From Glandiceps talaboti (Eukaryota > Hemichordata > Enteropneusta > Spengelidae): a stretch of 64,000 nucleotides of DNA. Position 1 is the stretch's first letter, and every line of letters begins with the position of its first letter. Positions 15,937 to 61,320 of this stretch are shown here, in pieces. A program made the position numbers and the translations under genes. The notes below the pieces were generated by a model. That model ran no database searches. It was not told where the DNA came from and saw nothing but the letters and a program-made list of their open reading frames with translations. The stretch spans positions 10,629,931-10,693,930 of the forward strand of contig NC_135555.1 of NCBI RefSeq assembly GCF_964340395.1. Reading direction: 5' to 3'.

Positions 15937-18900
15937 ATGATTATTGCTACTGGAAAATCATCATCAGAAGATAATATTCAAGACAAACTTTACAGACGGC
16001 GGAAAGTCACTGATATTCAACATATCCGTACGTCGAACAAAAGCAGTACAATACAAAGATTTACATACAAACATGGCAACGATAATACTTCACATTGGAA
16101 ATACATGAACATGAACATGAACATGAACATGAACATGAACCTAAGTAAACAAAGCACACGCAGACTACTGCTATATGATTATATAGCTTTTCTAGTTCTC
16201 TTCTTCACCAATGTTGGAAAAAGAGCAAATGCTATGGGTAAAATCAACCGTTTTTTCATACTAGCATTGTACATATCAGTATGTACACAGAACACAGCTA
16301 TGGCTTCTATCACCGTAGACACTACTCACACCAATAAAGCAACATTAATACACAGCACGAATATGAATCACATAACGAGCGAACTAAGTATAACGCCAAA
16401 AACCTTGCCAAACATAACGGAAACAGTATCGACGACCAATAAAATATTAACACCAACAACAGAAGTAGCAACAACAGCATCAAGTCTTACAACTAGTGAT
16501 GTCCCAACAACTTCCGATTTCCCAACTACAACAGATGAAGAAACAACAACAGCTGGTTTAACAACTTCTGACTTGCAAACAACAACAGCAACGACAACAC
16601 AGGAACAGACAACAACATCAAGATCTTCAACTACCGATGCGCCTGCAACTACGGAGGAACAAACAACCACTTCTGATTTGACAACAACAGAAGGAAAAAC
16701 CACCAGACCGGACATGACAACTACCGATTCGCCCACAACAGAGGCAGAAACAACAACAGCTAGTTTGACAACTACTAATGTGCCCACAACTACAGAAGCA
16801 CCAACCACCTCAGCTAGTATAACAACTACTGATATGGCCACAACCGAGGAGGCAACCACAACAGCTAGTGCCACCACTACTGTTTTGCCAACAAGAAGAG
16901 AGGAGGAAACCACAACAGCAAGTGGGACCACCACACAAGAGCAAACAACAACAGAGAAACAAACCACAACAGCTAGTGCCACAACAACTGATTTGCGAAC
17001 AACAGCAGAGCAAGAAACAACAACAGGTAGTATAACAACCACTGACTTCTCCACAACAACAGAGGAAGTAAGGACAACCTCCAGTGGCACAACGACTGAC
17101 ACTCCAACAACTGCAGAAGTAGCAACAACAACATCAAGTCTTACAACTAGTGATGTCCCAACAACTTCCGATTTCCCAACTACAACAGATGAAGAAACAA
17201 CAACAGCTGGTTTAACAACTTCTGACTTGCAAACAACAACAGCAACGACAACACAGGAACAGACAACAACATCAAGATCTTCAACTACCAATGCGCCTGC
17301 AACTACGGAGGAACAAACAACCACTTCTGATGTGACAACAACAGAAGGAGAAACCACCAGACCGGACGTGACAACTACCGATTCGCCCACAACAGAGGCA
17401 GAAACAACAACAGCTAGTTTGACAACTACTAATGTGCCCACAACTACAGAAGCACCAACCACCTCAGCTAGTATAACAACTACTGATATGGCCACAACCG
17501 AGGAAGCAACCACAACAGCTAGTGCCACCACTACTGTTTTGCCAACAACAAGAGAGGAAGAAACCACAACAGTAAGTGGGACCACCACACAAGAGCAAAC
17601 AACAACAGAGAAACAAACCACAACAGCTAGTGCCACAACAACTGATTTGCCAACAACAGCAGAGCAAGAAACAACAACAGGTAGTATAACAACCACTGAC
17701 TTCTCCACAACAACAGAGGAAGTAAGGACAACCTCCAGTGGCACAACGACTGACACTCCAACAACTGCAGAAGTAGCAACAACAACATCAAGTCTTACAA
17801 CTAGTGATGTCCCAACAACTTCCGATTTCCCAACTACAACAGATGAAGAAACAACAACAGCTGGTTTAACAACTTCTGACTTGCAAACAACAACAACAGC
17901 AACGACAACACAGGAACAGACAACAACATCAAGATCTTCAACTACCGATGCGCCTGCAACTACGGAGGAACAAACAACCACTTCTGATTTGACAACAACA
18001 GAAGGAGAAACCACCAGACCGGACGTGACAACTACCGATTCGCCCACAACAGAGGCAGAAACAACAACAGCTAGTTTGACAACTACTAATGTGCCCACAA
18101 CTACAGAAGCACCAACCACCTCAGCTAGTATAACAACTACTGATATGGCCACAACCGAGGAAGCAACCACAACAGCTAGTGCCACCACTACTGTTTTGCC
18201 AACAACAAGAGAGGAAGAAACCACAACAGTAAGTGGGACCACCACACAAGAGCAAACAACAACAGAGGAACAAACCACAACAGCTAGTGCCACAACAACT
18301 GATTTGCCAACAACAGCAGAGCAAGAAACAACAACAGGTAGTATAACAACCACTGACTTCTCCACAACAACAGAGGAAGTAAGGACAACCTCCAGTGGCA
18401 CAACGACTGACACTCCAACAACTGCAGAAGTAGCAACAACAACATCAAGTCTTACAACTAGTGATGTCCCAACAACTTCCGATTTCCCAACTACAACAGA
18501 TGAAGAAACAACAACAGCTGGTTTAACAACTTCTGACCTGCAAACAACAACAGCAACGACAACACAGGAACAGACAACAACATCAAGATCTTCAACTACC
18601 GATGCGCCTGCAACTACGGAGGAACAAACAACCACTTCTGATTTGACAACAAGAGAAGGAGAAACCACCAGACCGGACGTGACAACTACCGATTCGCCCA
18701 CAACAGAGGCAGAAACAACAACAGCTAGTTTGACAACTACTAATGTGCCCACAACTACAGAAGCACCAACCACCTCAGCTAGTATAACAACTACTGATAT
18801 GGCCACAACCGAGGAAGCAACCACAACAGCTAGTGCCACCACTACTGTTTTGCCAACAACAAGAGAGGAAGAAACCACAACAGCAAGTGGGACCACCACA

Positions 18901-61320: not shown

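Follow-up and report, generated by a model that had tools for sequence, protein, structure and literature searches.

The window analysed here is a stretch of 64,000 nucleotides from Glandiceps talaboti, a spengelid acorn worm of the phylum Hemichordata (RefSeq assembly GCF_964340395.1, contig NC_135555.1, forward strand, positions 10,629,931 to 10,693,930). Its principal feature is a gene model of nine exons on the plus strand, the giant exon of which measures 37.7 to 38.0 kb whichever 5' end applies (positions are those of the window unless a contig is named). From ATG 15937 to 53929 the frame runs for 12,664 codons without a stop, plus one base, as stated in a preliminary description of this DNA. 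Stop to stop, the same forward frame covers 15895-54360 (12,821 codons). The preliminary description also joined nine downstream exons in phase; the chain does run in phase to a single stop, but it consists of eight exons 3' of the giant one. The tail exons are preceded by AG, and GT follows each one through the gene's eighth exon. In each of the seven longer tail exons both other frames contain stops; exon 7, for instance, has 23 in one and 9 in the other. Counted from 16234, the better of two starts, the predicted product has 13,025 residues (13,124 from 15937), in agreement with the size of about 13,000 residues given earlier. On this model the gene is predicted to specify a single-pass membrane mucin of about 13,025 residues, which would probably project from the cell surface as a very long rod coated with sugars and held by a short conserved anchor. 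We put the probability of this reading at roughly 0.8.

In its longest reading the giant exon extends from the acceptor at 15917 to 53929 (15917..53929), as judged by the open frame and by the acceptor and start contexts, its coding part starting at ATG 16234 or, in frame, at 15917. Its donor, AAG/GTATTT, had been called good. On a rough consensus score it reaches 4.98 and is the weakest of the eight used, the others scoring 5.69-9.79. Exon 2 (54770..54867), conserved in the two paralogs described below, opens a membrane-proximal domain, the remainder of which lies in exon 4 (56172..56392); this exon and exon 3 (55331..55395) are placed by the in-phase chain and by paralog comparison. Exon 5 (56971..57127) is cysteine-rich and partly EGF-like according to the chain, the PDB search and the register of its cysteines in the paralogs. 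Exon 6 (57463..57669), also placed by the chain and the paralogs, holds the end of the EGF-like module, a predicted transmembrane helix (about 57527-57595) and a KRRR stop-transfer signal. The cytoplasmic part would be encoded by exon 7 (58430..58970), exon 8 (60571..60636) and exon 9 (61294..61320), all three assigned from the chain, and ends with LGLPETYF and the stop. The transmembrane and cytoplasmic parts proposed earlier are thus supported: near the C-terminus a hydrophobic stretch of 23 residues followed by AKRRR or TRRRR is kept in 3/3 paralogs, as expected for a C-terminal transmembrane helix, and 229 further residues lie beyond the helix and the basic stop-transfer stretch.

Two starts were compared. 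Around ATG 16234 both -3 and +4 are G, and a hydrophobic stretch ending in AMA/S follows; of all segments of 11 residues close to the N-terminus, the most hydrophobic lies in the opening of this reading. At ATG 15937 the corresponding bases are T (-3) and A (+4), and its first 75 residues contain no such stretch. Judged by these contexts, 16234 is the better start, and a signal peptide of 25 residues (16234..16308) is predicted there from hydropathy and start context. An alternative 5' end is offered by a candidate upstream signal-peptide exon (10195..10234; ATG 10129, 10138 or 10195), which ends in phase 1 at a good donor; the acceptor at 15917 suits this phase. A scan for an ATG with a hydrophobic stretch and an in-phase donor returned 5 candidates upstream vs 0-3 in 20 shuffles of the region. 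One paralog has a separate phase-1 signal-peptide exon, MDFLLRFTHLLMVASLLVCTIHVC, and in the other the same scan gave only a phase-2 signal-peptide candidate. An upstream signal-peptide exon is possible for the window gene as well.

The main array (16492..51921) consists of 54 units of 654, 657 or 660 bp (218-220 residues), each with about 12 subrepeats near 18 residues. Mean pairwise identity between units is 99.0% (97.9-100%). The 54 units represent 37 different sequences as DNA and 32 as protein, and the first departs most from the rest (98.4% mean identity). Units 13-16 are identical to 17-20, and 33-36 to 43-46, and these blocks point to unequal exchange or conversion. A second array holds 36 matched copies of an 11-residue unit (52585..53829). 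Over the mucin domain of 12,532 residues, threonine makes up 45.0%, serine 9.3% and proline 4.7%. Serine and threonine together reach 54.3%, with 44 in the lowest 100-residue window, which clears the criterion of at least 20% serine and threonine cited in the available part of PMC2515642. Proline lies just below the 5% search threshold cited there and rises to 8.8% in the last 430 residues.

Two paralogs with the same membrane tail

One repeat unit, searched against the genome, matched at 37 places, 36 of them on contig C17 and one at 5.446 Mb on the contig of the window (C8). Two paralogs lie on the minus strand of C8: P2, which surrounds the C8 match, and P3, found further along the contig. 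The window gene (window at C8 10629931-10693930) is P1 in the comparisons below. P2 (C8:5452233-5426578) has a 12.7-kb exon rich in proline, threonine and serine (PTS) made of 18-residue units, the separate signal-peptide exon mentioned above, and tail exons 2-6. Its T/S-rich frame is open for 4,253 codons (5447048-5434287), 4,224 of them before the donor after 5434376. The 18-residue units of P2 (e.g. SSMITTSDLPVTTDTET) resemble the subrepeats of the window gene, which suggests an older 54-bp unit from which the 657-bp unit was built up as a higher-order repeat.

Compared by exon, P2 and the window gene share 44% in exon 2, 42% in exon 3 (E 0.09), 53% in exon 4, 61% in exon 5 and 55% in exon 6. 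The six intron phases compared (1,0,2,1,2,2) are identical in P1, P2 and P3, and 12/12 cysteines stand in register across the three. Tail identities amount to 136/261 for P1-P2, 114/260 for P1-P3 and 141/261 for P2-P3, with proportions of nonsynonymous and synonymous differences (pN/pS) of 0.277/0.671, 0.341/0.723 and 0.258/0.677, respectively; a two-way alignment of P1 and P2 gave 137/261 and 0.277/0.677. In both P2 and P3 a T-rich open frame leads directly into the shared tail through the same phase-1 junction. At the level of sequence, this paralog comparison is the strongest evidence for the exon chain and for the giant exon belonging to its tail, and it supports the tail up to the transmembrane helix as a conserved family. 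The cytoplasmic parts diverge, exon 7 being only 23-24% identical to P2. The cytoplasmic region of P2 also includes a long, 1,091-codon open frame. The tail was not seen again within 10 kb either side of the window or in 70 kb of C17.

Points against the gene model and rival explanations

Several results weigh against the giant membrane mucin and are gathered in this section, beginning with the parts between array and membrane. The preliminary description had named a SEA-like part, and this claim did not survive the profile search: the Pfam SEA model is absent from the window gene and from P2 at E<=10. PDB sequence searches, made with the region itself and with a two-paralog profile, returned no SEA chain. 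Aligned by hhalign to four SEA sequences (one of MUC1, three of MUC16), the region gave a probability of 0.7% as a single sequence and 0.5% as a three-paralog profile, with 6/100 shuffles as good in each case, while the controls gave 92% (a TMPRSS SEA fragment) and 41% (MUC1 vs MUC16).

The EGF-like part fared better in one respect. All Pfam models stay below their cut-offs: the EGF matches of the window gene are weak (E 1.8 to 8.3), and P2 reaches E 0.0033 with the complement-type EGF model and 0.045 with EGF. The closest PDB chains are nevertheless EGF chains (phmmer E 0.035; 0.09 with the two-paralog profile), and the cysteine register described above is complete. The second six cysteines have EGF-like spacing, a loose pattern that also occurs in 374/2000 shuffles. 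From these comparisons EGF appears somewhat better supported than SEA.

The strongest rival explanation, which we hold to be tentative and somewhat short of an even chance, is a true SEA-type membrane mucin resembling MUC3, MUC12 and MUC17. Exons 2-4 would then encode a SEA domain of strongly diverged sequence, able to hold the glycosylated part or to release it under force, and the terminal -TYF would bind a PDZ scaffold. The order of parts is that of MUC3B, in which a PTS exon is followed by the domain, a transmembrane segment and a tail with a class I PDZ motif, as set out in the available part of PMC9578598; the C-terminal -TYF is comparable to the TTSF of MUC17 given in that of PMC6705488. 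The failure of the Pfam, PDB and hhalign searches speaks against a SEA domain, and the C-terminus of the window gene, exons 8-9 included, was not found in the P2 or P3 stretches (for P3, about 3.2 kb downstream were covered). In the main reading too, the membrane-proximal domain of the window gene lies at the position of SEA in vertebrate mucins like MUC3 and may do the same job, a SEA domain being undetected by sequence.

Next, the array itself was considered as coding sequence. Because its 54 units are nearly identical, the open frame counts as about one observation of 219 codons. An antisense frame is also open for 7,917 codons (16368-40121, minus strand) and then for 2,187 and 2,415 more; one antisense frame lacks a stop in the consensus unit, and the long one is read as a by-product of the repeat and not as a gene. 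For both reasons the open frame of the array was dropped as stand-alone coding evidence. Point variants that distinguish the units number 52, with 16 synonymous ones vs 14.0 expected (P 0.31) and 0 stops vs 1.7 expected (P 0.18). With both counts near expectation, the young units show no measurable constraint, and their substitution counts were likewise set aside as support. The 33-bp array of 11-residue units carries no frame signal either (pN/pS 0.86, and 0.50 in another frame) and was discarded as a frame test. The older 18-residue subrepeats do carry one: 26/26 internal pairwise gaps in their DNA alignment have lengths divisible by three, and the coding frame gives pN/pS 0.51 vs 0.65-1.55 in the other five, the codon alignment being protein-guided.

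Splicing within the giant exon is a further difficulty. On the same rough scale, 160 internal GT sites score at least 5 as donors, above the exon's own 4.98. They include 54 sites GAA/GTAAGG, one per unit, all in phase 0 and scoring 7 or more; joined to exon 2, such a site leads to termination after 12 codons and to a truncated product lacking the anchor. Synonymous shuffling of the unit lowers the number of donor-like sites (mean 1.6 vs 3 per unit), which gives no sign that donors have been purged from the array. These sites are a possible source of truncated, unanchored isoforms. They also favour an explanation with separate transcripts for array and tail, or with splicing inside the array, under which no 13,000-residue protein would be made. 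This is unlikely, given that in three paralogs a T-rich frame runs into the identical phase-1 junction and tail, and that the giant exon contains no more than 4 YAG sites that resemble acceptors and have a pyrimidine tract.

The two ends of the product add further doubt. A second hydrophobic stretch lies directly upstream of 16234, and two such stretches near the start make the choice of 5' end tentative. At the other end, the tail had no match at E<=0.001 among database proteins of about 257-819 residues (6,183 candidates), nor had exon 7 among proteins of about 4,400-14,000 residues (216 candidates). The final Tyr-Phe recalls HEG1, a mucin receptor with the order PTS, EGF and transmembrane segment and without SEA (available part of PMC1552070), whose C-terminal Tyr-Phe is critical for KRIT1 binding (available part of PMC6663315). 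A HEG1-like receptor binding KRIT1 at cell junctions is improbable, as the rest of the C-terminus is no closer to HEG1 than shuffles are (501/2000 as good) and has no PDB match, and the YF ending was not seen in the P2 or P3 stretches.

An equally improbable explanation is that the gene is real and its array length an assembly artefact, with a quite different true number of units: runs of identical units and blocks would allow this, and the longest exact repeat within the giant exon, 3,010 bp, is shorter than ordinary long reads. The array lengths reported here do depend on the assembly.

The long paralog, another giant frame and neighbouring genes

The second paralog, P3, was traced on the minus strand of C8 (C8:5402375-5188448) by contiguous reading, probes and the places of a marker, and consists of a T-rich frame followed by a membrane tail of the window-gene type. 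In 5402375-5300001 the frame comprises 34,125 contiguous stop-free codons, while the other five frames contain 7 to 4,595 stops. A 30-base marker of P3 occurs 408 times in the genome, always on one strand. All 206/206 successive spacings of this marker in 5402375-5300001 are multiples of three, with a unit length of 456 to 486 bp, and among the matches listed (100 of 408; 5189258-5249308) all fall in one frame. Of 15 probes of 400 bases, 13 (5200001 to 5295400) contain no stop and keep the frame; the remaining two (5180001, 5160001) fall outside the array. No stop interrupts the final 484 codons, which end at the donor after 5188448. The P3 exon therefore likely spans about 214 kb, or about 71,300 codons, of which about 105 kb were not read and may contain in-frame stops; by its span it would hold about 450 units. 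Donor-like GT sites (score at least 5) are rare in P3, with 1/2,958 in the 102-kb stretch vs about 3 per 657-bp unit in the window gene.

Titin and PKZILLA-1, the latter with about 45,000 residues, serve as the reference for protein length. Taken together, the sequences give a little better than even odds to a scenario in which the repeat exons of acorn-worm membrane mucins have far outgrown those of vertebrates. The window gene, at 38 kb, would stand between the other two members of such a giant-exon family, and P3 would have both the longest coding exon and the longest predicted protein known, with roughly twice the length of titin. If the whole frame of P3 is open and forms one exon, exons and proteins would be known to reach greater lengths than hitherto, with questions on how a message of more than 200 kb is transcribed, spliced and translated and its product secreted. 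Literature searches on the longest or giant exons and on invertebrate SEA mucins returned nothing useful, and in a search on PKZILLA the term did not appear in the papers listed (8 of 1,339).

A further giant frame lies on C17 (12191048-12221164, plus strand). It is T-rich (T 53.5%), has 10,038 codons (30 kb) and a strong 36-base periodicity; downstream of it come one EGF-like exon and several others that by eye resemble calcium-binding EGF modules. A comparison of this gene with the tail of the window gene gave nothing better than E 0.28; the likeness concerns the style of the repeats only.

Besides the mucin gene, the window holds a PABPN1 gene on the minus strand (about 4290-7974), whose product is 100% identical to the polyadenylate-binding protein 2-B-like of Glandiceps talaboti, with Ptychodera flava as the next best match (76%). 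On the plus strand, another gene with a hydrophobic N-terminus begins at 63469-63700; its first exon has no Pfam match at E<=1. A GA/GGGA simple repeat (about 53980-54265) occupies the intron directly after the giant exon, and P2 carries a CT/CCCT tract between its exons 4 and 5, likewise in an intron. The lack of any tRNA or Rfam match, the eukaryotic splice sites and the PABPN1 gene ruled out reading the window as prokaryotic or as RNA genes.

Proposed function and comparison with known mucins

Mucin arrays are in general densely O-glycosylated and extended, with 0.2-0.25 nm per residue. If the roughly 6,800 Ser/Thr residues of the window gene, a potential read from the sequence, are glycosylated in this way, the array would be stiffened into a bottlebrush measuring 2.5 to 3 micrometres when extended. 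The EGF-like region and the helix would retain the mucin in the apical membrane, and the cytoplasmic tail might connect it to the cell cortex, possibly via a PDZ protein. The length of the array would shift by unequal exchange of units and blocks, an exchange that preserves the frame because every unit length is a multiple of three.

According to the available part of PMC9578598, human MUC3B has a single PTS exon of 39,267 bp and 13,089 residues, with SEA, a transmembrane segment and a PDZ motif, and MUC12 has a single PTS exon of 32,428 bp; SEA-type membrane mucins are dated to vertebrates there. The MUC3B figures overturn the earlier statements that the exon of the window gene is far longer than the longest human mucin exon (given as that of MUC16, about 21-22 kb) and that a domain-complete membrane mucin of this size seems undescribed. 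What is new is the hemichordate family of a giant repeat exon with a membrane tail, as well as the likely length of P3. Searches of a collection of open-access papers for Glandiceps and for acorn-worm and hemichordate mucins listed no paper on the window gene as judged by titles and the beginnings of abstracts, subscription journals lying mostly outside that collection.

The MUC3 cluster (MUC3A, MUC3B, MUC12 and MUC17) is among the closest parallels, and its paralogs also lie on one chromosome. Unlike it, the acorn-worm family belongs to a hemichordate, lacks a detectable SEA domain, has no established similarity in the tail, and has three known members, one of them likely five times longer. 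MUC16, with about 14,500 residues, is a membrane mucin of comparable size but contains many SEA modules, none of which was detected in the window gene. With HEG1 and MUC13 the window gene shares the order PTS, EGF-like and transmembrane segment, and with HEG1 the final Tyr-Phe; its array is far longer, however, and the similarity of the remaining C-terminus to HEG1 is at chance level. MUC17 ends in TTSF and is retained apically by PDZK1, as the available part of PMC6705488 describes, and the -TYF of the window gene would fit a class I PDZ ligand in the same way. Drosophila mucin-like proteins are likewise repeat-rich, reach 23,000 residues and in some cases have EGF-like regions, but differ in architecture, the available part of PMC2515642 reporting no transmembrane mucins in Drosophila. 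With three hemichordate genes, the combination of a giant repeat exon and a short conserved membrane tail would not be limited to vertebrates, and this layout either predates them or arose twice.
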